From an uncultured Ruminococcus sp. (GTDB lineage: Bacteria; Bacillota; Clostridia; Oscillospirales; Acutalibacteraceae): a stretch of 21,460 bases of DNA. Made by a program: the position numbers and the translations under genes. The stretch spans positions 1-21,460 of the forward strand of contig CACYDZ010000223.1 in the NCBI GenBank assembly GCA_902773265.1, read 5' to 3'. A model generated the notes under the pieces. That model had not been told where the DNA came from. It did no database searches and saw only the letters and a program-made list of their open reading frames with translations. Numbering within the stretch: position 1 is the stretch's first letter; each line of letters starts with the position of its first letter. Below, piece by piece: positions 2,904-20,568 of the stretch.

Positions 2904-2922
2904 AACGAAAATCATGGTAAAT

Positions 2923-2962: not shown

Positions 2963-3093
2963 TTTCACTGTATAAACAAAAATCAGAACTTTTATATGAA
3001 ACATTCACTACCTAGAAAGGTCGGAACTTTCTTGCCAAGACAAGGTAAAATAATAATGAAGAAATTTATCAAAGATTATTGCAAAATCACCTT

Positions 3094-5934
3094 TTACTTT
3101 AATACAGGAATGTAATCCCCATACCTAATCAAACGGAAATTATGTTCTTCACTGTGTTTCTTTACAGTGTCGTGACTGTCATTTTTAGTATTGTTGTAGA
3201 TAATCACTAATTTACCACAATTAGCCAACAGATTACCTATATCGTTATTATCTGTCACATTACCTGCATTACAGATAATACAAGTATCAAAATACTGTGG
3301 TTGCATTGTCCATAATGGGATTTCTTCTTCTGTCAAAACAACAATTTTCTTTTCTGTTGTATCCTGCATTTGCTGATGAATTTGATTTGTATATATTCTT
3401 TCCAGACAATTATGCACTTGATAATAATACTGTATATCCAAAAAATACTCTGCTGTTCCTATCTGATACTGCTCTAAAAGAAATTTTATGTTATTTTCAC
3501 ACCACAATCTTTCAAATTCAAGACATTTTTCCTGATAATTTGTCAAATCCATCTGATAAATAAACTGTGGTATTGTTTCTCTCATAACACTTTCTCGATA
3601 AAGCAGATAATCTTCTGCATACCTGCTAACAAGATGATAAATTCTTGCCAGATAATCATGCACTTCCTTCTTTCGATACATAGTATCTTCAGATGAAAAG
3701 AGCGTCGATTGCAAAGTCCTGATAATACTGTTCATTTTGTCTGTCAGCTTATCTGCGGTTTGTACCATCATTTTCATATCTTCAAACAGCACATCAGTAA
3801 GTCCTTCATTTTTGTCTGCCGAACGACGGATAACTTCTGTGAGAAAAGTATACTGCTGATTCAATTTCTTATATTCTGCTATACTCTGTAACTGTACTTC
3901 AATGGTATTACCATACACATTTTCTTTGAAAAATTCATACAGCTCTTCAATGCTGACAAATCCTTTACCTGCAACAGAAATTTTTGTATTTCCACGCTGT
4001 TGAACACTGAAAAATTTTTCTGTAATTCCTGCTAATTCTTCCAGGTCGTCTCTGTAAATATGTTCCTTTTTGAATAACTTCTTGAAGAATTTGTCTAAAG
4101 GAGAAATACTTTCTTCGGGCTGATTTTCTGATCTCAGTTTAACATACAGTCTGGAAAAATAATCTTCTGCATTCTGTACCTTACTGTTGACTTTTAATCC
4201 GTTATTACTCCTTTCCAAAATGATTTTTGCATATTCTCTTATAGTATCCAAATCGGTTTCCAGCAAAATGTCAGTTTCCTCTTCATCGACTTCATTCTGC
4301 TTTCTTTTCTGACAGGTAGTATTCAATATTTCAGCAAGTTTTTCTGCACCAAATTCTTCCATCTGCTTTTGCAAACCTACTTTTTTTGCTAAAAATTCAC
4401 GGTACTGCTTATAAAAATCTCTGTACGGTTCATCAGCGAGAGAAAATTCATCAAAATGATTTCTCTGATTATTGATTTTCTCTTTGCACAGACGATAAGC
4501 TATATAACTGTAATTTTCTGTACTGTCGGCAAGTTCCTGTAAATTTTCTGCTTTTTTGATTTCTTCTTCAACTTTTTGCCTATATTGCAAAACACAACAA
4601 TATAACTGTTGTTCACTTTCAATCTCACTTTTTAAAAATTCTATATTAGATTTTGACGGATTCTGAATAATGTAATCAAAATTTTCTTCTGCAAATTTAT
4701 CTAATATTGCTTCATAACGATAGACATATTGCAAATCAGCTATTTCTAGAAAATGTACACCATTAAACATTGGATTTGCTGTCAGTGGTCTTCCTATCTT
4801 TGCACACCGTTCCAGCAATTCACTCAGTGGTACATCGTATTCTCTTTCCGGATACTCATATTGTAATAATTTTTCTGATATGACAGCTAATTTTTGCTGT
4901 AATTCCTTTTGATTATTGTTTTTTTTGTCAAAATCACTTTCTGAAAAAGAAACGGGTATTTTTTCTATACTGTCTGCACCATCTATACCTCCTGAAACAA
5001 ACTGCACATATCCACCAAATTCGGAATTTCTGAATTTTTTTGCTATTTTCTGTACACCGCTATCATTGGTAATTATCAGCGTTCTACGACCTTTGAACAG
5101 ATTGTCCGCTGTCAGACTACAAGAAAGTATATATTGCGTATCTTCCTCTTCTGTTTCCACAGCAACGATATTGTTACCTGTTTCCTGATTCAGCGTTCCC
5201 AGAATAAAACAGTCTGTTTTGCTCATTTTCTCTCTGAAGAAAATAACATTGTTGAAATCTGTCATCACATCAATCGCTTTGTTTTCTTCTGAAAACTGTC
5301 GGTAATAATCTCTGTTCAAACCTGTCAGACGGACACCAAAATAAAAATCCGGCTGTTGTATAGTAAGTCTATTTATTTCCGGCATAGTATAAAAACAGAT
5401 TGCTTCCTGTACATCTGAAAACCAGTCACTGTCATGCCGAATGTATGCTTCTTCCGTATTGTACAATATCCCATATATATCTTCAAAAAGAATACTTCTG
5501 TCACCTGTGTTGACAAAGGAATTTTCTCCCATTCTCAACAATCTTTGGCTGTCAGAAACAATAGTATTGTTCCGACTTTTGGGTGGAGTAAGCAATACCC
5601 CTATAAATACATAGTTTTCTTTATACATCAGCACACATGCTATCCCTATTGCGGACAAAAATGTACAGTATAACAGGCACATTCCGTACATATCCTGTCG
5701 AACAACAGTAAATTCTTTTCTTTCCCGAAAATCATTGTTCTTCTCTATCTGACTGCTGTCAAACTCACTTCGATATACCTGCGAAAATATTCTTGAAAAT
5801 TCCTTGTTGACATTTTCCATTTGATAAAACGGATTACTTTGTGCATAAAAATCAAAACTCTGATTTTTAATAGAGATAATCTTTTCTTCCATCTGTGCAT
5901 AGAGTTCTTTAGCAATATTCATCTTGAAAAACAT
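3094..5934 (-). CDS. inactive superfamily 1 helicase-like protein (single RecA lobe, no Walker motifs)
   Basis: This 946-residue protein is last in the block. It follows the shape of UPF1/Dna2-type SF1 helicase N-terminal lobes. Residues 241-300 occupy the motif I-Ia position, with the GKRVLFVSEK-like strand reading GRRTLIITND, but the P-loop position reads GTLNQETGNN with no GK[ST]. A helical stretch (345-380) resembles the segment after motif Ia. A long alpha-helical insert (about 390-860, glutamine- and glutamate-rich, probably coiled) follows. Then 882-891 (FDTCIICNAG) aligns with the Walker B FDxxIxDEAS, the DEAS having become CNAG. Finally IIYNNTK (911-917) aligns with motif III VVGDxxQ. 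The chain stops there, so the second RecA lobe is absent. It therefore should neither bind ATP in the usual way nor unwind nucleic acid; a scaffold or regulatory role is inferred. Residues 1-240 are unrecognised. AAAGGAGG lies 8 bases before the ATG, and the PBP stop is 23 bases upstream. Confidence 0.6.
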   Translation of the reverse strand: MFFKMNIAKELYAQMEEKIISIKNQSFDFYAQSNPFYQMENVNKEFSRIFSQVYRSEFDSSQIEKNNDFRERKEFTVVRQDMYGMCLLYCTFLSAIGIACVLMYKENYVFIGVLLTPPKSRNNTIVSDSQRLLRMGENSFVNTGDRSILFEDIYGILYNTEEAYIRHDSDWFSDVQEAICFYTMPEINRLTIQQPDFYFGVRLTGLNRDYYRQFSEENKAIDVMTDFNNVIFFREKMSKTDCFILGTLNQETGNNIVAVETEEEDTQYILSCSLTADNLFKGRRTLIITNDSGVQKIAKKFRNSEFGGYVQFVSGGIDGADSIEKIPVSFSESDFDKKNNNQKELQQKLAVISEKLLQYEYPEREYDVPLSELLERCAKIGRPLTANPMFNGVHFLEIADLQYVYRYEAILDKFAEENFDYIIQNPSKSNIEFLKSEIESEQQLYCCVLQYRQKVEEEIKKAENLQELADSTENYSYIAYRLCKEKINNQRNHFDEFSLADEPYRDFYKQYREFLAKKVGLQKQMEEFGAEKLAEILNTTCQKRKQNEVDEEETDILLETDLDTIREYAKIILERSNNGLKVNSKVQNAEDYFSRLYVKLRSENQPEESISPLDKFFKKLFKKEHIYRDDLEELAGITEKFFSVQQRGNTKISVAGKGFVSIEELYEFFKENVYGNTIEVQLQSIAEYKKLNQQYTFLTEVIRRSADKNEGLTDVLFEDMKMMVQTADKLTDKMNSIIRTLQSTLFSSEDTMYRKKEVHDYLARIYHLVSRYAEDYLLYRESVMRETIPQFIYQMDLTNYQEKCLEFERLWCENNIKFLLEQYQIGTAEYFLDIQYYYQVHNCLERIYTNQIHQQMQDTTEKKIVVLTEEEIPLWTMQPQYFDTCIICNAGNVTDNNDIGNLLANCGKLVIIYNNTKNDSHDTVKKHSEEHNFRLIRYGDYIPVLK

Positions 5935-5957
5935 AGATACCCCCTCCTTTTCTCTTG

Positions 5958-7556
5958 TTATTCCCTATTCAGTTTTTCAATTTCATTATAAACTTTCTCC
6001 AGCGGACTGTATTCTTCATCTGTTCCTCTTGATGCCCAGCCTGAACCTGTTCTTGCCCCTGCTTTTTCATTCATACTGTTCATTACAACACTGTAAATAT
6101 GACCGTTGACCGTGCAGAACGACATAAACCATAAATTGTCTTTTTCTTTGACTACGACTTCTCCTGTACCTGACTTTCCTCCGATATTTTCTCTCTGGAA
6201 ATTATAGTAGTTATGTTCTTCCTCATCTGAACAGGTATACAGCATTGCCGACTTGATTTTATCGGCTACTTCCATCGTAGTGACATTGATAGGTAAATTG
6301 TGATTATCCAGTTCGGGGATATTGTGCTTTTCGGCAATCTCTTTTAACGGAATTTCTTTCTTTTCGACACCTGCACTCTTTATTGCCTTTATCATATAAG
6401 GATTATAGGCTTTTCCGCCGTTGGCAATGGCGGAAACCAAACGAATTTCTGTGATTGTGGATAATTTTGTACCGCCTTGTCCATAAGCAGTATCTGCCAA
6501 TGCCCGCTGATATAACATATTTCCGCTGTCGTTGTCGTAATTGTATTTTCCTGTCTGTTTATTCTTGTCAAATGCCCATATGTCGACAACATTGCCAAAG
6601 TCGAATGAGGTTATTCGTCTGCCGTAATCATCAACTTTTTCCCCTGTCAGACGGTTCATTATGTTCGTCAATTTGACTTCAGCATTTTCCATATCCAGCA
6701 TTGCTCCTGCAAAAAAGATATTGGAAGAATAGTCCAATGCTTTTTTGTAACTCAATACTTCTCCTTGATTAGAACTGTCATAATTGACAATAAATTTGGC
6801 TTCATCTTCTTCACGGATAAATTCTCGCTCCAGATATTCATTTGTCTTTGTTACTCTGAACGGTGTATTTATTCTTTCATACTCTTCCCCTTTTACACCT
6901 TTGATACTGTTTTCCAGCAAAGCAATACTTGTTAGTACTTTGAATGATGAACCAGGTATTCTCGGGTCATCACAAACAACTGATGTGTACTTTTTTGGTA
7001 ATTCCTTTTCAGGATTATAGGTCGGCAAAGATACCATCGCCAGTATCTCACCGTTTTCGGCATCACTTACTACGATTGATGCATCTTCTTTGGAATTTCC
7101 TACAAAGTCTTTCATAATCTGATAGACGCTCTCTTGCAGGTCACTATCAATCGTCAGTTGTATATCATTTCCCTTTGTTTCTTCTATACTCCCTGTATCG
7201 TACAGAACATCGTAATATTTACGCAAAATACCTTCTGAATTTTCTTTTTCACTTCGGATATACCCTAAAAACGGTGCATACATTTCGGCATTGGTATACT
7301 CTCCGTAATTGCCGTTGGCAAAATCGACATTGGCTAAATTACAGATTTCTTTTCCGTTTCTGTCGGTAATTTTTCCCAGTACAACGACATGTTTCTTATA
7401 TTCCGTTACCGCTTTTTCTTTGAAAAATTCTTTGTTGTTGTTTCCGCCGAAAAATCCTCCTTGTGTGGTCAGCAAGGCTTCTGCAGTCATAATTCCTATC
7501 ACTAAAGTAATCCCGATGATTTCTTTTACATTCTTTATTTTTACTTTCCACTCCAC
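5958..7556 (-). CDS. class B penicillin-binding protein (PbpA/FtsI-like D,D-transpeptidase)
   Basis: This 532-residue membrane-anchored protein cross-links peptidoglycan stem peptides and is the expected partner of the SEDS polymerase encoded just upstream. A single transmembrane anchor lies at about 12-30, then a short pedestal with the GKITDRNG motif (61-68; usually RGxIxDRNG). The transpeptidase domain has all three active-site motifs: SSFK at 203-206 (nucleophile Ser203, Lys206), SSN at 277-279, and KSGTGE at 461-466. AYGQGGTKLS (about 358-366) precedes the last motif, as is usual. There are no PASTA domains. Size and layout recall mycobacterial PbpA more than PBP2 or SpoVD. The start is a GTG preceded by GGGGAGG 8 bases upstream. 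The enzyme looks fully active. Confidence 0.9.
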   Translation of the reverse strand: MEWKVKIKNVKEIIGITLVIGIMTAEALLTTQGGFFGGNNNKEFFKEKAVTEYKKHVVVLGKITDRNGKEICNLANVDFANGNYGEYTNAEMYAPFLGYIRSEKENSEGILRKYYDVLYDTGSIEETKGNDIQLTIDSDLQESVYQIMKDFVGNSKEDASIVVSDAENGEILAMVSLPTYNPEKELPKKYTSVVCDDPRIPGSSFKVLTSIALLENSIKGVKGEEYERINTPFRVTKTNEYLEREFIREEDEAKFIVNYDSSNQGEVLSYKKALDYSSNIFFAGAMLDMENAEVKLTNIMNRLTGEKVDDYGRRITSFDFGNVVDIWAFDKNKQTGKYNYDNDSGNMLYQRALADTAYGQGGTKLSTITEIRLVSAIANGGKAYNPYMIKAIKSAGVEKKEIPLKEIAEKHNIPELDNHNLPINVTTMEVADKIKSAMLYTCSDEEEHNYYNFQRENIGGKSGTGEVVVKEKDNLWFMSFCTVNGHIYSVVMNSMNEKAGARTGSGWASRGTDEEYSPLEKVYNEIEKLNRE

Positions 7557-7730: not shown

Positions 7731-10118
7731 TTACATGAAACCGACCAGATAATACATCACTAACAGCAATACTACGAAAATGCCGTTGGTAATTCCAAAA
7801 TTCTTTTCGGGCCACCGTATAAACTTCCGTAATACTTCTTTTCCTATAATGACAGATACTCCTATAAATAAAATCACTGCACCGATAATGGTATGTACAT
7901 CAATCGCTATGATACCACCTATCAGCACAATAATAATACCTAATAAAACTCGGACAAGGTCTTTAAAGGAATGCAGGGTATGGTGAACGATATTTCTGAT
8001 AGTTCTGTCAAAGTTTTTCTCATCCTTGATGTCTCTCTCAAACTCTCCACTGGAAATCAACAATAATATACATGTTACCATCATGCTGACTGTCTGAATG
8101 GCACCACCATGAGATACATACATCAGCGGTATGCCTGTAATCGGAAAAAGCGATATATTCACGGCAATATGTACGATATTCTGAAATGCCAGCAACAATA
8201 CAATGGCTACACCTAATACTCGGTAATAACCATCCTTTACATTAATTATCGAAAAATAACTTGTCAGTACCAACATCATATACAGTACTACCAGGATAAA
8301 AGCAAAAAGGTATCCTGAGGTATAAATAAACTGTGCAAACACAGCATCAGTACTGTTTTCGATTATTGTCAGGTTCATATCATTTTTGATAGGACCTAAA
8401 ATATCGGCTGCCGCTCGTGCTTTCATCATCTGAAATCCTTGTGAACCGCTTCCTATTCTGACAAAATCATCTTCTGTATCGTTGACATGAATAAACGCAT
8501 ATATTCTTTGACAAACTTTTGCCAGTGTTGGTTCGATAATACCGTCTACATCTTTCTGCTGACTGAGTTGTTCAGCGGTAAGTGCAAGATAATTTGCTTT
8601 CGGGTCATCAATTTCCCGTTCAAAAACTGTCTCAAATTCTTCGCTTGCTATCATGTTTTCGTACTTATAGTAGACACTTGTCAGAATACCTATACCTGAA
8701 ATCAGAAAAATTCCGCACATAGCAAGTATTATCCACTCTAACTTTTTAAAAGCAAACATCTTTCTATCTGTGAACATGAACAGCATAAGAATACCTATCA
8801 TAAACAGTGAAATCAGTGTACCCAGCTCCGATAAAACCAAAAATCCTATACAGTTGATGACAATATAAATGATAGCACAAAATACACGGTTGAATTTAAA
8901 ACACCCGAAAAAGGTAAACTGATTGTTCTTTTCTGATTTTCCGATAAAACCCGTCATCACAAAGACAAAAATGATTTTGGTAAATTCCAGTATATTGATA
9001 CTGCCCAGTACGATAGATGCTCCTGAACCACGCCCGAACAACAACAATGCCCCAAAAATCAGTATCTGCACTCCTATCATAATATGCAGAAAAACATCAT
9101 AATAGATGCCGTAGGCACAACCAAACAATACCATAAAAATAATGGCAAATATCACACTGAACAGTGCGTTCCGTATCATATACTTCATTTCGTCATGATA
9201 CTGACTGATTTTTTCCCATTTAATCATCTGCTTGTAAACTTTAGCGTATTTACTGATGGACATATCTGCATCAGCTTTTTCACCGTCTCTGAGAGTAAGT
9301 ATTTTGGATAAACCCAAATTCTTGACTATCAGATAATGCCTTTGAGCTATCTTATTTTCTTCTTCACTTAGAACTGCGATTTTTTCTTCATAGTCGCTAC
9401 AATTTTCCTGATAGTTTTTATCATCTGCGTTTTTGATTTTATACTGCTTATAAGCGTTTACCGTTTCCAGACGGTATTTTCTTATAGTCGCCTGTACAAA
9501 ACTGTCGGCACTGCCGTCTGTTTCAAAAGTAATAACTTCACTTTTTCCGTTCTCCGCTGTTTTCAGATTATCTACTTTAAGAATGTTTTTCTCTTTAAGT
9601 TCTTCCATAAAGGCTTTAGCATCCTCTACGGTAAAATTATATGTTTGTTCAAATTCGGCTTTCAGTTCGTTGATTTCATTCAAAGAAATCGTTTTGCCGG
9701 CATTTTCACTCGGTTCTTTTTTGCAAAGATTCTGTATCTGGTCATATTCTGAAAGTAGGAATACTTTTTCCAGTGTGTTCCTGACAGGCGATTGCAGTTC
9801 AAAATTGGAAATCTGTATAAACACACCGAATACCATAATTACCCCTGTACAGATAACTAACATTGTATTCAATTTACGGTAACACAGGTATTTCATAATA
9901 TTGATGCACAACAATAACATAATACAGATATATACCGTTACAATAACCAGAAAGCGGATAAAAACCTGAAAGGCAACTTCTGTATCATTGATATTTTTCG
10001 TCATTTTGTAGCCCAGGATACCTAAAACCAGTAATATCCCCGCTATACTTAATCCGATAACCACTCCTTTTTTTTTGCGGATTTCCGTTATCCTCTGCCA
10101 TATATCGCCTGATTTCAT
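7731..10118 (-). CDS. enlarged RodA/FtsW-family (SEDS) peptidoglycan glycosyltransferase
   Basis: The 795-residue multi-pass membrane protein is about twice the normal SEDS length of 370-430. Family members polymerise lipid II with a partner class B PBP, here the next gene. Recognisable SEDS segments (numbering from the GTG) are GRGSGA with EFTK around 363-382 (for GxxRWI..QPSExxK), SELGTLI near 431-437, IGSGSQG near 557-562 before a long outer loop, STDAVFA at 590-596 whose Asp592 sits where the catalytic Asp of RodA/FtsW (TDFIFA) is found, and FPITGIP..VSHGG at 659-673 matching the signature VTGIPLPFISYGG. Three extra features are an N-terminal hairpin of two membrane segments (about 20-78), a soluble insert of roughly 210 residues (105-315), and two or three extra C-terminal membrane segments (722-796). 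The start is GTG at 10121 or ATG at 10118; neither has a strong ribosome site. Confidence 0.85.
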   Translation of the reverse strand: MKSGDIWQRITEIRKKKGVVIGLSIAGILLVLGILGYKMTKNINDTEVAFQVFIRFLVIVTVYICIMLLLCINIMKYLCYRKLNTMLVICTGVIMVFGVFIQISNFELQSPVRNTLEKVFLLSEYDQIQNLCKKEPSENAGKTISLNEINELKAEFEQTYNFTVEDAKAFMEELKEKNILKVDNLKTAENGKSEVITFETDGSADSFVQATIRKYRLETVNAYKQYKIKNADDKNYQENCSDYEEKIAVLSEEENKIAQRHYLIVKNLGLSKILTLRDGEKADADMSISKYAKVYKQMIKWEKISQYHDEMKYMIRNALFSVIFAIIFMVLFGCAYGIYYDVFLHIMIGVQILIFGALLLFGRGSGASIVLGSINILEFTKIIFVFVMTGFIGKSEKNNQFTFFGCFKFNRVFCAIIYIVINCIGFLVLSELGTLISLFMIGILMLFMFTDRKMFAFKKLEWIILAMCGIFLISGIGILTSVYYKYENMIASEEFETVFEREIDDPKANYLALTAEQLSQQKDVDGIIEPTLAKVCQRIYAFIHVNDTEDDFVRIGSGSQGFQMMKARAAADILGPIKNDMNLTIIENSTDAVFAQFIYTSGYLFAFILVVLYMMLVLTSYFSIINVKDGYYRVLGVAIVLLLAFQNIVHIAVNISLFPITGIPLMYVSHGGAIQTVSMMVTCILLLISSGEFERDIKDEKNFDRTIRNIVHHTLHSFKDLVRVLLGIIIVLIGGIIAIDVHTIIGAVILFIGVSVIIGKEVLRKFIRWPEKNFGITNGIFVVLLLVMYYLVGFM

Positions 10119-10195
10119 CACTTATCAACCCCATTTCGGCTTTTTCTGTTCAAAATCATTTTTTTCACTTTCAATTTTTGACTATATCTGCTCAA

Positions 10196-10672
10196 TCATC
10201 GTTTTTCATTGATTTCGGGTATTTTGATGTAAAATTCCATCGTTTTTATCATAAATTGATATTGTTGTCCGTTTCTCAGCGTCAGTTCTTCTTTCACTTC
10301 ACGATAATCTTCACCCTCTTTATAATACAGTGGCATCTTCTTACTGAGATTTTTTATCCGATAAATTCCATTGACGGTATCAGTCGTTATGGTCATCTGT
10401 CTTTTTTTCATCCAGCTGCAACAAAAACCGTTCTGTTTTCCCATAACTTCCACGCTGTCGGTAATATTGAACCTTTTTTCATGGTTGCCTTCCTGCCATT
10501 GAATTACAGGCTGCTGCTGTATTTTGAGATGTTCTATTTTTATCGCTTCCGACTTTGCGGTGCTTTCAGATGCTTCTGACTGCTTTTCGATAATCCCGTC
10601 AAGGTCGCCTTTGAATGTGTAAATTACTATTGCTATCACACCGATAATAATAATCAATCCGACAATGGTCAT
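10196..10672 (-). CDS. membrane-anchored protein with a degenerate FHA-like domain
   Basis: The product is 158 residues. An N-terminal membrane segment (about 3-20) is followed by an acidic/serine-rich linker and then a beta-rich domain of about 90 residues from FNITDSVEVMG to FYIKIP. The pattern of alternating strands, an YRIKNLS segment where FHA domains have the D.gSsNG turn, and a closing L..G..Y.F strand suggests a forkhead-associated fold. The phosphothreonine-binding GR, S and NGT residues are not clearly present, so peptide binding is doubtful. The frame is open from a GTG at 10681, but GGGAAG lies directly before that codon and 8 bases before the ATG at 10672; I take the ATG. It lies between the GAP1-like genes and the SEDS gene, as FHA genes precede rodA-pbpA in Actinobacteria. 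The FHA assignment is tentative. Confidence 0.6.
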   Translation of the reverse strand: MTIVGLIIIIGVIAIVIYTFKGDLDGIIEKQSEASESTAKSEAIKIEHLKIQQQPVIQWQEGNHEKRFNITDSVEVMGKQNGFCCSWMKKRQMTITTDTVNGIYRIKNLSKKMPLYYKEGEDYREVKEELTLRNGQQYQFMIKTMEFYIKIPEINEKR

Positions 10673-10709
10673 TCTTTTCACTTCCCGATTTTCATTGCTT
10701 TATGCTGAA

Positions 10710-11672: not shown

Positions 11673-11684
11673 TGTTCCTTACTC

Positions 11685-14600
11685 CTATTTATCAGATTTC
11701 TGATTTGCTGTTTTGCGTTTTGGAAATGGTTTGTCAGGCTGGTCAACATTGTATTTGCCATTGGCACTTCTTGTAAAAGAAGTTTTTATTCCATCGAAAA
11801 TACTGTTCTTTGGTCTGCCTACACAGTAATTATCACGACTTGATGCATTTGTACAGATAATATTGCTGATATAGGTATTTATCTGACAGATGATATCTTT
11901 ATGTTTCTCAATAAATTTCTGTTTTACACCGTCGTCCAACATATCAAAATTTCTAATAAAATCATTCCAGTTCAGGTCATTTTCTTTACACCACTCACTG
12001 ACTTTTGCCATTTCACTTTGAATTTCGATATAATGTATATCACTAGGACTGTATTTCCTGACATCGTTGAAAAGATGATATCTTAAATTTTCCTTTTCTT
12101 TCGCAGTGAGAATATCTTTCCATATGTATGCTGATACATAGTAACGAATTTTTTCTGGTCTGAATTTTTCTTTTCCCTGTATATAGTTGTAAACCGAACT
12201 GAAAATCAATATACTCTGTTCAAAACTGTCCTGTGTATTTGCATCAATAACCTCTCTCACCTTTTTGCCGAGACATTCATTGAGATAACGGTACATCTGT
12301 TCATATTGATATTTCTGAGAAAACCATCGGCAAAGACTGATAAATTCTCTCTTACCTTCCGGTTTTGCTGTTATTTCATCGAAAGCTTTCTCCGACAAAT
12401 ATCGTATAAACCAATAAAAATCATCGAAATCCTGCTTGCTCTGAATGATAATTTTCCAGTTACGCCGATATCTTTCCTCATCGGCAGGAAATATGCCTGT
12501 TCTGAAATAACTGTATTCCAGAAAAAGACTGTACTTTAATCCTTCTCCCTGAATATTCTGCAAAGTACCCCGAAAAATCTCATCATAAACAAAATCAAAA
12601 TCCGTAATCTTTATAAAATTCCAGAAAGCAACATTATCCCAAAGATACAGAATTTCTCCTGCACTATGCGTACGGTTTCCCTGTATGAACTGATTTTTGA
12701 TTTCCTCTATATCTTCTCCGATTTTCTGACAAAGAGTAATATATCCCTCTTCATAACAGCCTTTGTTTATTTTTTTCCACTGGACAATCCACTGAACAAT
12801 ATATTTCAGTGTGCTTTCATCGTAATCACTGTCATTGATGATGGCATTAGCTTTAGCGAACCATTTTCTCTTGAGGTCTGTGTTGGTAAGTTTTTCAAAT
12901 GGCTGACTTTCCTGTAACTGTTTAAACTGCTGTGCATAGTCTATTTTCAGGATACTGCACATATAACTGTATCTCTTAACAGTGTCTTTTTGCAATGGTG
13001 TCAGCAAAGACTTTACTTCCGCTCGCTCAAGCTGTGTAAGAATGTTATCTAAGGCACTACTGTCCCTGCCTGTCGCTTCAAGTTGCTGTATCAGTTTGTG
13101 TATCAGTTCACACACTAAGAATTTGGTATAGTTGTTGTGAAAACATATATCTTCAAACAACATATCCAGATAAATTTTGATGTCATCTGTTTGATAAAGG
13201 TCAGCTGTTTCCTGTTCTCTGACAAACTCCTGCCATTGATTGATTGAAAATATAGTGCTGTTTCTTTCTACAAAACTGTATACCTCATATTTTTCCGTAT
13301 AGGAATTTTTAGTACGGTATTCGTTCCTAGCTTTTTCAATCATATCCGCTCTGAATTGTTCGCTTTCGTTTCCTTCGCTAAAAATCCCCACATCGTAAGC
13401 CTTACAGTAATCTTCGGTCAGTTTTACTTCGCTGTTATGCTGAATATATGAACGGACTCTCTGATAACAGGCAATCTTTTGAGCAATCGTATATTGCTGT
13501 TCATAAACGGTAAACTGCTGAATGTCATCGGGCAACCACTCACAAAGATTTCTGTAAATGATTTTTCCTGACAATCTTTCATACTGCTCACACAAAAATA
13601 GACAGCTGAGAACATTATTTCCCTCAAAAACAATATTGCATTCACAACAAATACAATGGATAAATTCTTTCAGCATGATATCATCAACAGCAAAAATGTC
13701 TTCCTGTAACAATTCATTTTTCTGAAAGGCTGAGTAATACAGAAAACATACCGACTGAAAACATTCTCTGCGGATTTCCACTTCCGAACAGGCGGTAAAC
13801 TGACAATAAGATTGATATAATTTTTTCAGATTTTCGGCATTAAGAACTATCCCTTTCCAAAATTCTTCGTCATCGGTAAATGAGTAAAGCCACCATATCC
13901 TTTCAAAGTTGCCTGCGTCTGCCTGCTGTCTGATACCATCGATGAAAGTATCCAATTTGGTGCAAAGTTCATCATATGCTGTGCAGATTTCTTGTGTATC
14001 ATGTTCAGTGGAAAACACATTATTGGTTTTCCACTGCTGAATTTGTCGGAAATCTGTATAAAAACCATTCTGTAACAAAACTGTTACTTTCTTTATCCAG
14101 AATGATTTTATTTTTTCTTCTCTGACGGTCGAAAAAGGTACAGTACGGGTAAGTTCACTAAATGTTTCTGCCTGCGTAATTTTCCGGTTTTTTTTCAGAA
14201 ATTCAATCTGTTCACTGTATTGATTCAGACGCTTCTGTTTTTCGGGTGTCCAGATAAGGTCATTCTGTATTCTGCGGATTTGTTGCAAATCATATTCGGC
14301 AATATCCATATTTCCCTGACGAATATGTTCTCCCAGTTGATTCAGAAAACTGTCTGCCAGAGCTGTATACAAAAATGTGATATATTCCGCATAATCATTC
14401 TGTTTTGTATGGCAGATAAATATATCTGCTGTATTGTTGTCAGCAATATCTATACGACTGATTTCGGTATCTATGACAAATTGTTCCCACTGAGATATTT
14501 CTATCACATTACTGTGCTGTTCTGCTACGGTGAACAGTATACCTTTTTCTGAAAAACTTCGGCAGGACTGATAAATATTTTGCAGTCTATGTAAAATAAA

Positions 14601-16037
14601 TGTCTGTATCTCTTTCTGACAGGAACTTTCTTTATTGATGAGATTACCGTAATACAAGGCTATTGTATCAAACATTGTATTGAGTTCATCTGTTTCTATG
14701 GGTATCTTCTGCATAAGAGAACTGATGTGTTCTTTAATGATATTGTTTTCCGTGCGTCCGTACAGGATTTCCAGTACAGATATACGGTCTTTGAGTTCAA
14801 AAAGTCTTTCTGCATCCGTACCATAGGTTTTATCCATGCAGTCAAATATCCTGACTATCTCTCCATCAGAAAAGTGGTTACTGCTCAAAGCATAGTCCCA
14901 TATCTTCAGTAATTCATCTTCGGAAACTTTCCCACCTGACAAAATACAAGGGTCAAACTTTTCGATATGCTCAATATATTTCTTACAGTACTGTTCCACC
15001 ATGAATGAACCTTTTTTAGCACGATTCAGTCGTTCTGACAGTTTTCCCACTTTGAAAGAAACACATTCCACTGAAGAATCCAGTTCTTTAATATCGTAAC
15101 GGATATAATATAAATCAATCAGCTTTTCCAGATAAACACTTCGGGTATTTTTCTGATTGGCAGTAAAATCTTCTCCTGAACAAAGCTCCCGAAGATAGTT
15201 TTTCATCTCTATCAAAGAATATTGTGCCTTTGTGGCAAGTTCGTAATAAAAACTGTTTTCGGGAACATCATCATAACTTTTTGATAAATCGTACAGTACA
15301 TCTTCACTGCTACCTATATAACTGCTTTTCGGTACAAAACATACTCCGTTTTTATACTCCGTCTTTTTGCATACACTGTATCCTAAAGATTTATGCAATG
15401 TTTCGGCGGAAAGTATACTTCCACTGAAACACTCAGGGATTAACAGATGCATAAGCAGACAAAATTCTGCGGATATCCGATAAATGTTATTGTGATAGCT
15501 GTAATCAAAACAAATGTCATCTATCGGAATGACTATTCTCTGACAGGTATCATAGAAAAATGAACGGTATTCTGTTTCTATCAGCTTTGCCAGTCTTTTC
15601 AGTCCTGCCGTGCCGTCAAAATCGAATTTTTCAAGAAGTTGTTTGTAACTGAGTTGTACTTCCTGCGGTTGTATCTGCCTTAGTTTTATTCCCTCATAAA
15701 AATTTTCTCTGTCATTTTTGTAATAGTAAGGGTACATATAACGGATATAACTTTTGGGATTATCAAAGGTAAAATGTTCGTCTTGTGCGGGAATGAAAAC
15801 GGATTTCAGTACTCCGTAATCGTCCTCTACATTTTCTTTGCTGATATCTATTACGGCTATATAACCAAAACAACCTGACTTCTCGTTATATCTAAAATAT
15901 TCTGTGGCAATACTATCAAATTCAGGCTTCTGGTCACCAATAAACCCCATAAACTGACTTTCATCTCCGCCTGATGTGTTCTTTATGCCAAAACCTATTC
16001 CACGCCTGCCATAGTGATAACATTGATTATAGCTCAT
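11685..16037 (-). CDS. GTPase-associated protein 1 (GAP1)-like giant protein, 1450 residues
   Basis: This large cytoplasmic protein has no membrane segment. Its N terminus (about 1-240, with NQCYHYGRRGIGFGI at residues 4-18) resembles the N-terminal domain of the GTPase-associated protein 1 family, which is encoded next to double-GTPase genes in predicted bacterial conflict systems. The rest is helical and rich in aromatic residues and cysteine. I see an internal repeat: about 498-675 and 915-1095, each with an I.QW.EFV start, a LTPLQK/WTPEKQ..RYS middle and a following F..L....F segment. Residues 1046-1357 recur as the separate 320-residue protein. No catalytic motif was found; a large adaptor or regulator of the GTPase is inferred from position. 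The ATG has only a weak ribosome site (GATGG, 7 bases upstream), 46 bases after the GTPase stop. Calling it GAP1 rests on context and the N terminus, without a database search. Confidence 0.6.
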   Translation of the reverse strand: MSYNQCYHYGRRGIGFGIKNTSGGDESQFMGFIGDQKPEFDSIATEYFRYNEKSGCFGYIAVIDISKENVEDDYGVLKSVFIPAQDEHFTFDNPKSYIRYMYPYYYKNDRENFYEGIKLRQIQPQEVQLSYKQLLEKFDFDGTAGLKRLAKLIETEYRSFFYDTCQRIVIPIDDICFDYSYHNNIYRISAEFCLLMHLLIPECFSGSILSAETLHKSLGYSVCKKTEYKNGVCFVPKSSYIGSSEDVLYDLSKSYDDVPENSFYYELATKAQYSLIEMKNYLRELCSGEDFTANQKNTRSVYLEKLIDLYYIRYDIKELDSSVECVSFKVGKLSERLNRAKKGSFMVEQYCKKYIEHIEKFDPCILSGGKVSEDELLKIWDYALSSNHFSDGEIVRIFDCMDKTYGTDAERLFELKDRISVLEILYGRTENNIIKEHISSLMQKIPIETDELNTMFDTIALYYGNLINKESSCQKEIQTFILHRLQNIYQSCRSFSEKGILFTVAEQHSNVIEISQWEQFVIDTEISRIDIADNNTADIFICHTKQNDYAEYITFLYTALADSFLNQLGEHIRQGNMDIAEYDLQQIRRIQNDLIWTPEKQKRLNQYSEQIEFLKKNRKITQAETFSELTRTVPFSTVREEKIKSFWIKKVTVLLQNGFYTDFRQIQQWKTNNVFSTEHDTQEICTAYDELCTKLDTFIDGIRQQADAGNFERIWWLYSFTDDEEFWKGIVLNAENLKKLYQSYCQFTACSEVEIRRECFQSVCFLYYSAFQKNELLQEDIFAVDDIMLKEFIHCICCECNIVFEGNNVLSCLFLCEQYERLSGKIIYRNLCEWLPDDIQQFTVYEQQYTIAQKIACYQRVRSYIQHNSEVKLTEDYCKAYDVGIFSEGNESEQFRADMIEKARNEYRTKNSYTEKYEVYSFVERNSTIFSINQWQEFVREQETADLYQTDDIKIYLDMLFEDICFHNNYTKFLVCELIHKLIQQLEATGRDSSALDNILTQLERAEVKSLLTPLQKDTVKRYSYMCSILKIDYAQQFKQLQESQPFEKLTNTDLKRKWFAKANAIINDSDYDESTLKYIVQWIVQWKKINKGCYEEGYITLCQKIGEDIEEIKNQFIQGNRTHSAGEILYLWDNVAFWNFIKITDFDFVYDEIFRGTLQNIQGEGLKYSLFLEYSYFRTGIFPADEERYRRNWKIIIQSKQDFDDFYWFIRYLSEKAFDEITAKPEGKREFISLCRWFSQKYQYEQMYRYLNECLGKKVREVIDANTQDSFEQSILIFSSVYNYIQGKEKFRPEKIRYYVSAYIWKDILTAKEKENLRYHLFNDVRKYSPSDIHYIEIQSEMAKVSEWCKENDLNWNDFIRNFDMLDDGVKQKFIEKHKDIICQINTYISNIICTNASSRDNYCVGRPKNSIFDGIKTSFTRSANGKYNVDQPDKPFPKRKTANQKSDK

Positions 16038-16083
16038 TATTATACCATCAACTTTCTGTTATCATAACGCTGTTGTTTATTTG

Positions 16084-17907
16084 TCACTGGTTATTCGAAT
16101 GTTCGTCCGTTACCTTCGAAATGAAACAGTTGACAAACGGGTCGGCTATTCTGACAAAGTTGTGTTCGCAGGACATCTCATCTACACCAGTATCTATCGC
16201 TACATTGACACAGTTCCATGAATAGCTAATAGAATTTTTATACACATACTGTGGAGAAACCTTCTGAAATTCCAGTTGGTCATTAATAACAACACGCCTG
16301 AAAAAAGATTTTATGGTTTCATCTCTGTCAGCTCTTCCCTGCAATTCAAATGGGTCAAGACCTCCGGCAGGCTGTTGCAGATAAGATGGGAATAACATTA
16401 ACTCTTCATCGTCTTTCCAGTGTTCCTTTTCAGCTATATCCAACAACTGATTACTCTTAACCACAGTAAAGGCGATATGTCGGATACTTATGTTTGAACC
16501 AAATGCTGCATTGGAACGCAGGATGTCCAGAATGTTCAACAAATATAACATCGGTGACTTCGAATGGGAAATGTTGTTCTTCTGTAAACCTGTTTCTTTT
16601 GTATCAGGGAAACTCTCCCTCTGAAATGTTCCGTCAGACTTTTTCTCTGATACTTCTCTCTTTTCACTGTCTTCTTCGCTGAAATATTTGCTTAGTCCCC
16701 TCATATTTTTAGGTTCTACCATATAAATCAGCCCTTCAATTTTTTCCAATAATGGCGTGATACTATTATCAAAGTTTTCTATACTTTCAAATGTTTCTCC
16801 TGCCACATCAAATATGCCGATAAGCAGTTTTGTATTACCGAATGTTCCTTTACAATCCGTTATAGCAATATAAACAGGCGGTAAAATGGTATGTTCATTG
16901 GTATGTTCGGGAAATCGCTTCAAGGTATCGACCTCTCCTTCATTACGGATTTTTCCTGTAAATCTGTCCAGATTCTTGTAACGGGTTCCCTGTATGCGGA
17001 ATCTCTCCCTTTCAAAGGGAATTCCTGTCGTTATACTCCACCATCTTCCATTGTTTTCTCCTGTATTCAGACACGCCTCCAAATTGCCTGCCATCAACAG
17101 TGCGGACATATAAGTTGTCTTTCCTCCTGTGGGCGGTGCAACCATCATGACAGGCATATACCCCTGCAGTTTTTCCTTGTCAAACCATCCGTTGGGCAAT
17201 AAAGTATGACACTTCGGACAACATGGTAAAATATAGTACAAAATGTCATCTAAAGCATCTTTTATGACATAGAAAAAGGTGTTTTTCCCGACTTCTTTTA
17301 TAATATAGTCTGTTTTTTCTATCATTTCCATAAGTGCTTTTATTTCGCTCTTCTTGTCCTCTATTCGATTGCCCTCTCCCTGGGAATATAATAGATTTCT
17401 CGGTTCGTTATTCCCATCTATACCTTCCCATGTCTCTCGATACACTTCTGATACCGTTTTTTCTCCGATAACTTTATAGCGTTGATTTCCCTCAATTCCT
17501 GCCAGCTCTTCATTAACAAAACTATTGAAATCATCTACATCCTTGCTTCTTGGAAAGACTTCATAAACCAATATATCACGGCAATAAATATCTGTTACAT
17601 TGGATTTGTTTATCATAGTATGAAATTTAGCAGGACATCTCTTTCTCCACAAATCCATCTGAATAGAAACACTCTTTTCTGCAACCGGAGATGTTTCAGT
17701 TCTTTCAGTTCTTTCAGTTCTTCCTGCCTGTTGCGTTCTTTCATAATATACTGTATGGGCTGTATTGTTTTCAATGTTTTCTTTTGTCAACGAGGAGAGT
17801 TTTATTGCGGGAGTAGACTTCTCTTCTTTATTGTTTTCTTCATTTGTTTTAGCTATACTATTGCCTGTGCGTCTTGAAATATCTGGATTGGTCTTCTTTA
17901 ACGGCAT
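16084..17907 (-). CDS. P-loop GTPase of the double-GTPase (DO-GTPase2-like) type
   Basis: The 607-residue protein opens with a disordered, charged leader (1-80) carrying an RTE repeat at 63-71. A CCPKC zinc-ribbon-like knuckle at 229-233 directly precedes the nucleotide-binding core. The P-loop is APPTGGKT at 257-264 (Lys263, Thr264). The Walker B/switch II DxxG is DVAGE at 367-371. The base-specificity motif is expected at VKSNQLLD (483-490), where family members usually have [NT]KxD; here the Asp position is Asn486. The core has long insertions (about 400-450, Lys/Glu/Ser rich) as in TRAFAC double-GTPase proteins. It probably binds a purine nucleotide and acts as a switch with the GAP1-like protein encoded next. 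AAGGAG lies 10 bases before the ATG; the vWA stop is 14 bases upstream. Confidence 0.7.
   Translation of the reverse strand: MPLKKTNPDISRRTGNSIAKTNEENNKEEKSTPAIKLSSLTKENIENNTAHTVYYERTQQAGRTERTERTETSPVAEKSVSIQMDLWRKRCPAKFHTMINKSNVTDIYCRDILVYEVFPRSKDVDDFNSFVNEELAGIEGNQRYKVIGEKTVSEVYRETWEGIDGNNEPRNLLYSQGEGNRIEDKKSEIKALMEMIEKTDYIIKEVGKNTFFYVIKDALDDILYYILPCCPKCHTLLPNGWFDKEKLQGYMPVMMVAPPTGGKTTYMSALLMAGNLEACLNTGENNGRWWSITTGIPFERERFRIQGTRYKNLDRFTGKIRNEGEVDTLKRFPEHTNEHTILPPVYIAITDCKGTFGNTKLLIGIFDVAGETFESIENFDNSITPLLEKIEGLIYMVEPKNMRGLSKYFSEEDSEKREVSEKKSDGTFQRESFPDTKETGLQKNNISHSKSPMLYLLNILDILRSNAAFGSNISIRHIAFTVVKSNQLLDIAEKEHWKDDEELMLFPSYLQQPAGGLDPFELQGRADRDETIKSFFRRVVINDQLEFQKVSPQYVYKNSISYSWNCVNVAIDTGVDEMSCEHNFVRIADPFVNCFISKVTDEHSNNQ
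17694..17720. repeat. 9-bp in-frame tandem repeat, three copies
   Basis: TTTCAGTTC is repeated exactly three times within the disordered leader of the GTPase gene. On the coding strand it specifies successive Arg-Thr-Glu units. Copy-number change would alter protein length by three residues without a frameshift. Confidence 0.85.
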
Positions 17908-17921
17908 AAAATCACTGCTCC

Positions 17922-20486
17922 TTACTGTTTATTTTTTTTCTTGACTACGATTATCCAATCGTCTTTACCATCCCAAATTGTTGTTTTCCTAACCCTTTCT
18001 TCAGTCACAGTCATCTTCACGGTGTCTGACTGCTGTACTGTACCGTCTACGGATATCTGTTCACGCCCTGCAAAAATGATACTCAGTTCATCTGCATTTT
18101 CCGACGAAATAAAAATAATATTCAGATTTTCTCTTCTCTGCTCTCTCAGAAAATTCTTTACCGTCATCACCGCTCCGCCTGTTACCCTGAAATCTTCTAT
18201 GGAGGCAATATAAGTTACTGTATCAGACTTGAATGCCCGACCAAACTCTCTGTTGAAAATTACTGTAATCTCAAAAGGCATTGTAGACTGCAGTCTGCTT
18301 TTCTTATCAATGATTTTTCTATTTTTCTCCTTAAGATTTTCTATTGTGTCAGATACAATGTTTCCATTAAGACAACCTCTGAGTTCTTCATTTTTACTGC
18401 GGATTTCTTCTGCTATCTCGGATAATTTATGGGTATCATTGATTTGTTCTGTCTGTTCATCGGACAAAATGTTCTTGAAAAAGTCTTTACTTTCTTGCAG
18501 TTCCTGATTGAACATTTGTGTTTTGCTATCGATGGTTTCCAATAGTGCTGTTTCTTCACTTGTTATTTCGTCAATAATTTTTTGTGGAATACATTTTTTT
18601 CCCAGTGCTTCCCGTAATATGGAAAGATTTATACGGTAATTCTTTATATCACAGTCATTCGATAAATCACTACACCGTTTTTCCAGATTGTCTATATTTT
18701 TTTTCAGTTCGGCTTTCTGTTTTTTTATCTCATTTCTACGCTTTGTTATTGTTTCTCCTTTTCGACTTTTTTCACTATCTCTGATACTTATGCTACCTCG
18801 TCTTGGGCTGATAAATACATAATAAACACCTACCAACAACAGTCCTGCTAGAATCATTCCGAAAAATATGCATGATATCGTTCCGTTCACTATAAACCCC
18901 TCCATTTTTAAACTGACTTTCAAATTCGTACTGTCTCTGAAAATAAGATTACTGTCTATTTTTCCGAACAGCTTTTCTGCTTTACATTTTAGTCTGCCGT
19001 TTTCGATATACGGCACAGACACTAAACGATTATCTCCTTTATTGTAAATAACCTTATCTACAATAAGTTCGTTTATATCGGAATCTCCATCTCCAATATA
19101 AGCTCCTATATCAATATCAAAAACATATTCACCGTTTTCTGTCACGGTACAGATAATTTTCTGATGACAGTTTTTAATCAGATACGGTGCTTCCGCTTTT
19201 ACCTGTGCGATATGTTCTGTTATACATTCTATATCGATATAGTCATCGTATAAGATATGTATCTCTACATCTACTGTACCGTAACTGTTAAATTCAAACT
19301 CATCACTCACCAGCTTTCCCTTTTCTTGTCTGAGTGTCAGCGATTTATACAAGGATTTTTTTCCATCTGTCATAATATCACTGAAATAGATATCTGCTTT
19401 TATTTCGGCACCTTCATCGGGTAAATAAGAATTTCCTTTGCTGTCCGATAAGTCCGCTGTCAAAATACAGGAAGTATTTTTCTTCAGTACACTGCTATTT
19501 CCGTTATTATCTGTCAGCTTTCCCGATGCGGTCAGTTCTGTATAATAGGCCATCGTCACTTTTGTATTTTGAATATCTTTTTTATTGTCACCTTCTATTT
19601 TTATCGTCCACTCTCCGTGTGTGGGATTATCTATACACAAAAAAACATTGAAACCGTCTACCCATGAATTACTGCGATTTTTCTCTCCCAAAGGGCCTAT
19701 TACCGTTATCCTGATATGATTTCCTCTTGCATATGTCTGTAATTTCGTTACATTGAGTTTCGGTATGACAAAAACATATTTTCCTTCTTCGTCCAAAGAC
19801 ACCGTCTGATACTGCACATCTCCCCTTGAACCGTAAAAAATATCAGCAAACTTTTCTGTCATCAAATCCATATTCCCTTCATTGATATGGAAAATCTTTC
19901 TTGTATCCAGCAGATTTTCAAACTCGCTTTTCTTCGTATTCTCACCTATCAAAGCACAATAAAGTTCTATGTTTTCCTTTGCCAGTTTCTTCTTCTGTTC
20001 ACTTAAATCTGAATTTGTTTCTGTGTTTACACCATCTGTAATGAGTATCATTATCCTTTTTCTTGTCTTATCCTGATGTCTGAACAACTCCATTCCTGAT
20101 TCAATTAATTTTTCTGACACCGTCTGCTTTCTTTCTTTGTGTATTGGTAAATCAAAATAATTTTTGACTATCGCTTTATAACTGTTTTCATCTTCTATCA
20201 AAGTAAGATAATGTTTACTGCGTAATCTGTCCGTACAGTAAACACTGCCTACCCGTATGTCTGAACCTACCCCTGAATATACTGCATTACACATCGCATT
20301 GTGACACATTTCACTTTTGGCTATCATACTTTGACTGTCATCTACTACAAATACAACATCCAGTTTTTCATTCTGTTGCATATAGTTCTCTGCTGTTGCA
20401 TATATCAATTTCGTATCTACTGCACAGAAAAGCAAACAAACCAGAATAAAAAAAATGATATTTCGCCTTAATTTTCCATAAAACAA
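17922..20486 (-). CDS. secreted/transmembrane von Willebrand factor A (vWA) protein
   Basis: This 854-residue bitopic protein is the first gene of the block. A signal segment (about 8-28, possible cleavage after ATA at 30-32) is followed by a vWA domain (42-220) with an intact MIDAS metal site: DDSQS at 49-53, Thr122 and ITDG at 149-152. Beta-rich extracytoplasmic domains (225-530) come next. One transmembrane helix lies at about 535-558, followed by a positively charged segment (SPRRGS), so the C terminus is cytoplasmic. It holds a coiled coil (580-730) and a beta-rich terminal domain (735-850). This suits a sensor that recognises a surface ligand and signals to the cytoplasmic GTPase. The start is TTG at 20486: AGAGGTG lies 5 bases upstream, the signal peptide begins there, and the nearby ATG is out of frame and hits a stop at once. 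Confidence 0.85.
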   Translation of the reverse strand: MFYGKLRRNIIFFILVCLLFCAVDTKLIYATAENYMQQNEKLDVVFVVDDSQSMIAKSEMCHNAMCNAVYSGVGSDIRVGSVYCTDRLRSKHYLTLIEDENSYKAIVKNYFDLPIHKERKQTVSEKLIESGMELFRHQDKTRKRIMILITDGVNTETNSDLSEQKKKLAKENIELYCALIGENTKKSEFENLLDTRKIFHINEGNMDLMTEKFADIFYGSRGDVQYQTVSLDEEGKYVFVIPKLNVTKLQTYARGNHIRITVIGPLGEKNRSNSWVDGFNVFLCIDNPTHGEWTIKIEGDNKKDIQNTKVTMAYYTELTASGKLTDNNGNSSVLKKNTSCILTADLSDSKGNSYLPDEGAEIKADIYFSDIMTDGKKSLYKSLTLRQEKGKLVSDEFEFNSYGTVDVEIHILYDDYIDIECITEHIAQVKAEAPYLIKNCHQKIICTVTENGEYVFDIDIGAYIGDGDSDINELIVDKVIYNKGDNRLVSVPYIENGRLKCKAEKLFGKIDSNLIFRDSTNLKVSLKMEGFIVNGTISCIFFGMILAGLLLVGVYYVFISPRRGSISIRDSEKSRKGETITKRRNEIKKQKAELKKNIDNLEKRCSDLSNDCDIKNYRINLSILREALGKKCIPQKIIDEITSEETALLETIDSKTQMFNQELQESKDFFKNILSDEQTEQINDTHKLSEIAEEIRSKNEELRGCLNGNIVSDTIENLKEKNRKIIDKKSRLQSTMPFEITVIFNREFGRAFKSDTVTYIASIEDFRVTGGAVMTVKNFLREQRRENLNIIFISSENADELSIIFAGREQISVDGTVQQSDTVKMTVTEERVRKTTIWDGKDDWIIVVKKKNKQ

Positions 20487-20539
20487 AAAATCACCTCTGA
20501 TGTTACCAGATTCTTCTTTCTTCTAATATATTTGATATC

Positions 20540-20568
20540 ATTTTATCTCAACTGTTTTGTTAAGTCAA
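20540..20568 (-). promoter_or_regulatory. sigma-A promoter for the eight-gene block
   Basis: On the minus strand TTGACT (complement of 20563-20568) and TAAAAT (complement of 20540-20545) are spaced by 17 bases. Transcription would begin near 20533, leaving a leader of about 47 bases before the vWA TTG codon. No later promoter of comparable quality was found down to 3094, so one long transcript is plausible. Confidence 0.75.

Follow-up and report, generated by a model that had tools for sequence, protein, structure and literature searches.

The window (the whole stretch of DNA analysed, 21,460 nucleotides from an uncultured Ruminococcus sp.) harbours a run of eight genes in which a vWA protein and a GTPase-like protein are joined to a SEDS glycosyltransferase and a class B PBP. 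This run most likely represents one co-inherited, rare unit, and the link between sensor/GTPase and wall synthase looks real, the same combination having been found in a distantly related genome. With moderate confidence, the run may be regarded as one accessory operon making a dedicated, switch-controlled peptidoglycan synthase.

Gene layout and transcription signals

As the initial annotation had described, eight genes follow one another with tight spacing of 12 to 174 bases; their reading frames lie on the minus strand from 20486 to 3094. Every frame is open, and the gaps in the order of the genes are 14, 46, 12, 28, 74, 174 and 23 bases, the widest lying between the SEDS and PBP genes (174), followed by that between the FHA-position gene and SEDS (74). 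The features are as follows:

20540..20568, minus strand: sigma-70-like promoter match TTGACT-17-TAAAAT, 10 of 12 positions matching, about 50 bases upstream of the vWA start
17922..20486, minus strand: vWA protein, 854 aa (PF00092 at 3e-9; hydropathy; homologue in genome G601)
16084..17907, minus strand: DO-GTPase-like protein, 607 aa (profile comparison; motif alignment; metagenomic homologue P0002; homologue in G601)
11685..16037, minus strand: 1450-aa protein directly 3' of the GTPase, in the GAP1 position, with two related stretches of about 300 residues (620-872 and 1035-1349)
10710..11672, minus strand: 320-aa protein, a stand-alone copy of stretch 1035-1349 of the 1450-aa protein (43% identity, E 1.5e-79)
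10196..10681, minus strand: 161-aa protein, one N-terminal TM followed by a domain; it takes the place that the TM-FHA protein has in G601, G536 and G491
7731..10121, minus strand: SEDS glycosyltransferase, 796 aa (PF01098 at 4e-17, above cut-off), 15 hydrophobic stretches
5958..7556, minus strand: class B PBP, 532 aa, one TM (PF00905 at 5e-32)
3094..5934, minus strand: 946-aa last protein, earlier termed a pseudo-helicase; helicase homology suggestive only
2917..2968, no strand assigned: inverted repeat of 26+26 bases, perfect-type, 92% complementary, no loop

The run was also said to possess one strong promoter. The site itself is present, but its class is about as frequent in shuffled sequence (79 sites in the region versus 68.2 +/- 8.8), so that its role as a strong promoter is plausible only. 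Four minus-strand terminator-like sites were detected, every one within a gene and none in the gaps. The inverted repeat, located between the convergent murF and the last operon gene, is a possible two-way transcription end, and the Rfam search gave no match. Three contigs are listed for the GTPase protein, which speaks against an assembly accident.

The predicted proteins

The Pfam match makes the name of the vWA protein firm. Its vWA domain retains DxSxS (D49-S51-S53); according to hydropathy, a hydrophobic stretch (10-28) at the N terminus is followed by a later single TM (536-554), beyond which lie a charged coiled-coil-like section and a C-terminal cytoplasmic part.

The second protein is DO-GTPase-like but divergent. 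No Pfam match, DO-GTPase2 (PF19993) included, was obtained at the cut-off, and the GTPase of G601 reaches this family at E 0.27 (11 of 27 bits). The GTPase name given initially nevertheless holds on a profile match and on motifs in register: hhalign against a profile of six DO-GTPase-type proteins returned 96.1% (single-comparison E 2.8e-9), with only 73% and 64% against two sub-sets, and of the motifs CPKC (230), APPTGGKT (P-loop, 257-264), DVAGE (367-371) and KSN (484-486), the zinc-ribbon-like CPxC, the P-loop and DxAGE coincide with those of the aligned DO-GTPase-type proteins, which have KxD in place of KSN. Aligned with five others, DVAGE supplies the Walker B Glu of the TRAFAC type. One CPxC pair is in register with canonical members, and no second pair was recognised; PMC7159879 gives N-terminal zinc ribbon(s) for 60% of DO-GTPase members. 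GTP use by the window protein is uncertain because Ala occupies the first Gly position of the P-loop and Asn the Asp position of NKxD; by analogy with mutants of Ras and EF-Tu, KSN would make for a weak or altered preference for guanine. The metagenomic homologue P0002 is 72% identical.

Both enzyme names of the wall synthase pair were confirmed by Pfam. The SEDS protein carries loops of 214 residues (105-318) and 122 residues (483-604), the latter holding a conserved Asp, D592. This residue aligns with the TD in MrdB of E. coli (PDB 8tj3) and with relatives, and we take it to be the Asp of the large outer loop that is catalytic in SEDS proteins. The window SEDS matches the SEDS proteins of two ordinary loci of the order (L063/L064) at 98.0% by hhalign and the metagenomic P0004 at 85% over 67%. 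In the PBP, SxxK (S203-K206), SSN (277-279) and KSG (461-463) are retained; with the SEDS Asp and the PBP SxxK, SxN and KSG kept, alignment shows that the catalytic residues of the predicted pair are preserved. The profile matches of the PBP include SpoVD and MrdA types, but the family scores are far below every equivalog cut-off and therefore name no role.

The third and fourth genes had been described as GAP1-like paralogues. Their paralogy stands, the 320-aa protein being weakly similar to residues 620-872 of the 1450-aa protein as well (23%, 2e-8). GAP1 membership of the 1450-aa protein is not supported by sequence: there is no Pfam match, the profile comparison yields 0.2%, and its GAP1 N-terminal score is equalled by 87 of 337 unrelated proteins and its M-block score by 12 of 150. 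Position alone fits, and the GAP1 identity is kept as a positional guess. The corresponding large protein of G601 reaches 7% in the GAP1 profile comparison, with an N-start score attained by 4 of 337 unrelated proteins. Residues 1-360 of the 1450-aa protein, predicted alone, gave no usable model (pLDDT 36).

Similarly, the designation of the 161-aa protein as FHA-like is not statistically supported in the window, as it has no Pfam match, a profile comparison of 1.3% and, against the second G601 FHA protein, a score equalled in 86 of 1000 shuffles. The FHA proteins of G601 match FHA at 6e-11 and 3.5e-9 and carry the phosphothreonine-binding residues.

The claim that the last gene encodes a dead helicase is not supported in the window. 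Neither a Pfam or NCBIfam match nor a P-loop was found in the 946-aa protein, hhalign gives 0.2%, BLAST against the G601 helicase returned no match, and the SF1 motif blocks score at chance (motif I, 10 of 60 column shuffles as good; motif II, 28 of 60), with no Walker A or B recognised. Its N-terminal Cys block resembles that of DUF4011 / SF1 helicases more than any of 60 column shuffles, while 6 of 323 hydropathy-matched real blocks score as high. The gene seems to be maintained rather than decaying, since two full-length homologues (62-63%) occur in metagenomic sets. Structure prediction of the protein and these two homologues gave no usable model (pLDDT 34), and a profile search of genome contigs with their alignment found no match.

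The second locus and the distribution of the unit

A GTPase-profile search across 394 genomes of the order matched two, namely the own genome and G601 (JAJPXP010000037.1), which belongs to another family. In G601, genes for a vWA protein, GTPase, large protein, HTH protein, two TM-FHA proteins, SEDS and PBP lie in this order on one strand, the GTPase and large-protein genes overlapping by 11 bases and SEDS and PBP by 4. Protein matches between the two loci range from E 2e-35 for vWA (25% over 544 aa) through 4e-27 for PBP (28% over 425 aa) and 2e-18 for the GTPase (23% over 397 aa) to 3e-17 for SEDS. In the trees, the window and G601 proteins are sisters for both PBP (96/92) and SEDS (93/93), although both groupings involve long branches, with a flag that they may be false, and the SEDS one falls below the 95 mark. 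For the second SEDS tree, L052 and P0004 were omitted and the window protein was represented by residues 315-705; the two class A PBPs were omitted from the second PBP tree. A recent duplication of the host FHA-SEDS-PBP genes was rejected, the host copy grouping with its own genus and not with the window pair.

The initial annotation had set, as a test of the single-system idea, whether SEDS-PBP genes lie next to vWA/GTPase genes in relatives. G601 has them side by side and in unchanged order, but the arrangement is rare, with 2 of 394 genomes. Because the joined order recurs in G601, where SEDS and PBP are sisters of the window proteins, the idea gains real support, and gene order, pairwise matches and trees together make a single co-inherited unit the most probable origin of the run. 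That a vWA/GTPase module came by chance to lie beside an ordinary FHA-SEDS-PBP triad of the order, in a diverged copy, is improbable. In favour of chance, many members of the order have the triad by itself, and the two gaps that flank SEDS are the widest in the run; moreover, among 97 open frames of seven ordinary triad loci (L060-L064, L066 and the own L090, the last only 3.7 kb long; L065 is not a triad and enters no triad count) none matches the vWA, GTPase, GAP1-position or last-gene proteins at E 0.01. Against mere chance stand the recurrence in G601 and the fact that all gaps are below 175 bases without a terminator-like site.

The operon is accessory: it is extra to the housekeeping SEDS/PBP set, and GTPase and vWA are absent from all five genus-mates searched. 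These possess two SEDS and three PBPs each (leaving aside a third, sub-threshold SEDS row in G002, which belongs to an unrelated gene), and the own genome exceeds them by one SEDS and one PBP. Among 5.8 billion metagenomic proteins, one homologue was found for the GTPase, one close and two weak for SEDS and two for the last protein, counted among about 8000 scored candidates per query, the reach being close relatives only; the contigs that bear them measure 2.7-5.2 kb. The close homologues of the GTPase and the last protein indicate that the genes are maintained. There are two genomic occurrences in all. Viral contigs gave no match for SEDS, the GTPase alignment, the G601 GTPase or P0006, and the 72 plasmid records found with P0006 (all below 60% identity, the best covering 22% of the query) are ordinary SEDS. 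The operon has a GC content of 0.358, whereas the 15 contigs sampled have 0.39. Compared with 52 frames of the host, its individual genes range from the 10th to the 17th percentile and are thus only mildly low, and codon use is not unusual; this composition is not strong evidence of transfer.

Comparison with known systems and possible functions

For DO-GTPase systems, a conflict role close to the membrane has been predicted (Kaur et al., eLife 2020, PMC7159879). The window shares with them, canonical examples being taken from G012, G119, G163, G201 and G231, a TRAFAC-type GTPase with DxAGE and a Walker B Glu, a large protein 3' of the GTPase, a TM-anchored vWA protein and a membrane-proximal setting, but differs in that no GAP1 domain, FNIII (none by Pfam in the eight window proteins), tubulin or HSP70 partner was found, and in carrying SEDS and PBP; the main text of that paper mentions neither "FtsW" nor "penicillin". 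The order FHA position, SEDS, class B PBP is that of the triad of the order (L060-L064, L066, L090) and of the actinobacterial fhaA/fhaB-pstP-rodA-pbpA-pknA/pknB cluster (PMC3989709). G601, with two FHA proteins, PP2C and a Ser/Thr kinase, is nearer to this cluster, whereas the window unit is joined to vWA and GTPase, has no recognisable FHA residues, encodes no Ser/Thr kinase or PP2C by Pfam among its eight proteins, and has a SEDS protein with long extra loops and C-terminal TMs. None of the literature matches listed joins DO-GTPase/vWA with SEDS-PBP.

We infer a relay from vWA through the GTPase to wall synthesis. The membrane-anchored vWA ectodomain would respond at the envelope to a ligand or to damage, and its cytoplasmic tail would alter the state of the GTPase, for which the 1450-aa partner and its 320-aa paralogue may serve as scaffold or regulator, in the place held by GAP1 in DO-GTPase systems. 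The GTPase step would then license the extra SEDS-PBP pair, possibly tethered via the small TM/FHA-position protein, for local wall building. In G601, the adjacent PP2C and kinase and the intact FHA domains suggest that phosphorylation sets the corresponding step; the window version seems to have lost this input.

SEDS-PBP enzymes are the main wall builders and are known in division, growth and sporulation, and extra pairs in other bacteria serve developmental or backup roles. A synthase of that kind, for spore-like division, shape or growth under wall drugs, with GTPase and vWA only localising the enzymes, would accord with such precedents and with the SpoVD and MrdA types among the PBP matches, but is unlikely given the low family scores and the absence from genus-mates, which must share basic development.

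A somewhat less doubtful alternative is defence, in which a phage-triggered GTPase switch would cause emergency or aberrant, growth-stopping wall synthesis, the last gene being akin to anti-phage DUF4011 helicases. The conflict role predicted for DO-GTPase systems in PMC7159879 and the patchy, accessory distribution speak for it, as does a unit neighbouring the G601 locus, which encodes PP2C, Ser/Thr kinase and a DUF4011 helicase (PF13195 at 4e-9, intact P-loop GGPAGNGKS). This helicase matches the NCBIfam families "anti-phage protein ProA" (7.8e-116) and Hhe (1.9e-32) as well as PADLOC PDC-S37 (2.4e-53). However, its scores of 388 and 112 bits are far below the curated cut-offs of 1500 and 2000, respectively, and its unit, which a gene on the opposite strand separates from the PBP gene 1048 bases away, may be transcribed on its own, while the window's last protein shares with DUF4011 / SF1 helicases (ProA and Hhe included) the one Cys-block resemblance and no P-loop, Pfam, NCBIfam or profile match. 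Furthermore, none of five window proteins matches PADLOC at E 0.1, and neither phages, searched with the G601 vWA, nor plasmids, searched with the G601 GTPase, gave a match.

Returning to the switch-controlled synthase, a tentative extension is that of a conflict- or damage-triggered machine, in which the vWA sensor and DO-GTPase-type switch would turn on a private SEDS-PBP pair whose action repairs or seals the envelope. In G601, kinase/PP2C/FHA control would be added, and an anti-phage-type DUF4011 helicase lies alongside. If this were true, the effector would neither kill the cell nor cut nucleic acid; it would mend or seal the envelope. Two fields would be linked by a rare, transferable-looking unit in which a conflict-type GTPase switch governs SEDS-PBP, and DO-GTPase systems, whose outputs so far are predictions, would gain a testable function, with G601 offering a version whose recognisable FHA, kinase and phosphatase components may be tested part by part.

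Gene content of the operon

The window comprises the entire contig C223 of a 1.79 Mb genome (388 contigs, 77% complete). Eight open frames run on the minus strand from 20486 down to 3094 with intergenic gaps, in gene order, of 14, 46, 12, 28, 74, 174 and 23 bases, which confirms the tight single-strand run (gaps of 12-174 bases) described in the initial annotation.

Features of the window
470-1519, plus strand: ddl, left of the operon
1533-2903, plus strand: murF, left of the operon
First gene of the operon, minus strand: vWA protein, 854 aa
16084-17907, second gene, minus strand: GTPase, 607 aa
11685-16037, third gene, minus strand: large protein, 1450 aa
Fourth gene, minus strand: paralogue of the large protein, 320 aa
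Fifth gene, minus strand: TM protein, 161 aa
Sixth gene, minus strand: SEDS, 796 aa
Seventh gene, minus strand: PBP, 532 aa
Eighth gene, minus strand: last protein, 946 aa
20700-21173, just outside the operon on the right: DDE transposase remnant (PF13586, 3e-11)
Right of the operon: ABC ATPase, truncated by the contig end

A stretch of ~300 residues is present twice in the 1450-aa protein (11685-16037) and a third time as the stand-alone next gene, a recent internal amplification.

The vWA, SEDS and class B PBP assignments were borne out, all three proteins scoring above the Pfam cut-offs. The PBP retains SxxK, SSN and KSG, and the SEDS protein shares the TD motif with E. coli MrdB. Judged by hydropathy only, the length of the SEDS protein stems from a loop of 214 residues behind hydrophobic stretch 3, another of 122 residues ahead of stretch 10 and three additional C-terminal stretches. 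The metagenomic SEDS proteins P0005/P0006 (710 aa) have an outer loop of 238 residues and group loosely with the SEDS of the window, G601 (another family of the order) and loci L063/L064 (93/93, long branches).

The Pfam search returned no match for the GTPase. Profile-profile comparison with six DO-GTPase-type proteins gave 96.1% (single-comparison E 2.8e-9), with two sub-sets of these 73% and 64%, with G601 added 97.7%, and against G601 alone 97.8%. The CPKC, P-loop and DVAGE motifs align in register with the relatives. At the NKxD position, the window protein (residues 484-486) and its metagenomic homologue P0002 carry KSN, versus KxD in G601 and three canonical proteins; in both, the first P-loop Gly is replaced by Ala. 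An Asp-to-Asn change in the NKxD specificity motif shifts guanine preference to xanthine.

Three further names could not be upheld. For the large protein, termed GAP1-like, Pfam gave no GAP1 match, profile comparison gave 0.2%, and the GAP1 N-terminal score was equalled by 87 of 337 unrelated proteins. The 161-aa protein, termed FHA-like, has no FHA match in Pfam; its local alignments to both G601 FHA proteins cover the same FHA strands, with scores equalled by 184 (first) and 86 (second) of 1000 shuffles. The supposed dead helicase and three homologues lack any helicase family match, its profile comparison gave 0.2%, and its helicase motif blocks are at chance.

Second occurrence in the order

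A profile of the window GTPase and P0002 matched only two of 394 genomes of the order, its own and G601 (family f13; E 2.9e-10). Contig JAJPXP010000037.1 of the latter (Clostridia bacterium isolate AH.12_9) encodes on a single strand vWA (885 aa), GTPase (553), a 1125-aa protein and an HTH protein (534), followed by TM-FHA proteins (246 and 194), SEDS (475) and PBP (673). The proposed joining of vWA/GTPase to SEDS-PBP thus recurs in the same order in a related genome. BLAST matched vWA (25% over 544 aa, 2e-35), PBP (28%, 4e-27), GTPase (23%, 2e-18) and SEDS (21%, 3e-17), and gave no match for the large, 161-aa and last proteins. In trees whose long branches were flagged by the program, the two PBPs are sisters (96/92), as are the two SEDS proteins (93/93, below the 95 mark).

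A second G601 unit, 1048 bases past the PBP gene with an opposite-strand kinase-like gene between, encodes PP2C, a Ser/Thr kinase, a protein with weak vWA similarity, another of 210 aa and a 1310-aa DUF4011 helicase. The helicase reached 388 bits against NCBIfam ProA (cut-off 1500), 112 bits against Hhe (cut-off 2000) and 2.4e-53 against PADLOC PDC-S37; PADLOC matched none of five of the eight window proteins. Directly downstream, past a TM protein whose tail is SH3-like, lies a capsule/exopolysaccharide-type locus (L140, G601:C23:47500-67400) with sugar transferase, flippase-like and CpsD-like genes.

Rarity and the ordinary triad

The operon is accessory. Among 5.8 billion proteins (about 8000 candidates scored per query), the GTPase has one relative (72% identity), SEDS one close relative (85% over 67%) and two weak ones, and the last protein two (62-63%). 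The GTPase was found in its own genome only (98 relatives searched), as were vWA and, at 1e-10, PBP (60 searched each). Five genus-mates have murF (68-92% identity) and lack the GTPase and vWA; no operon match follows their murF in stretches from 1.3 kb (G002, up to the contig end) to about 17 kb (G004). Each has two SEDS proteins above the Pfam cut-off and three PBPs, versus three and four here, two window rows being treated as one PBP. G002 also gave one weak SEDS hit just below the threshold (26.3 bits, cut-off 26.4); it comes from a 428-aa gene that neighbours a PadR-like one and does not belong to this operon. After murF, G002 has another transposase-like frame, unlike the DDE remnant.

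FHA-SEDS-PBP triads are common across the order (L060-L064, L066 and L090 of the same genome as the window). In five of these seven loci the FHA domain is part of the SEDS protein; L063 and L064 encode it separately, as a TM-FHA protein of 159-174 aa. At E 0.01, none of the 97 frames of the seven loci matched the proteins of the vWA, GTPase, GAP1 or last gene. The operon's right half thus represents a diverged version of this common triad, and what is unusual is its join to the left half.

A putative gated wall synthase

According to PMC7159879, whose main text lacks the words FtsW and penicillin, DO-GTPase systems follow tubulin, HSP70 or kinase themes with extracellular vWA proteins; PMC3989709 describes an actinobacterial pkn cluster uniting FHA, RodA, PbpA and kinases. 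Our literature search found no paper uniting the two. In a same-family genome, a DO-GTPase/GAP1/HSP70/vWA/HerA-like locus (L036-L037, G012:C1:1092000-1128000) follows the HSP70 theme already published, with no SEDS-PBP seen. The window is not assigned to the DO-GTPase/GAP1 systems, since GAP1 was tested for and not recovered. Its unit looks like one acting as such a system, in a variant that seems new and whose output is a predicted wall synthase.

With its parts, their order and its second occurrence observed, the operon is taken as a gated wall synthase, every signalling step of which we infer. An envelope signal would reach the vWA ectodomain, the vWA tail would act on the GTPase with its large partner, and these would act on the TM/FHA-position protein and SEDS-PBP; in G601 the signal is probably also passed by phosphorylation. 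Because of the KSN and P-loop Ala of its GTPase and its degenerate FHA-position protein, the evidence suggests that the window holds a simplified or rewired version.
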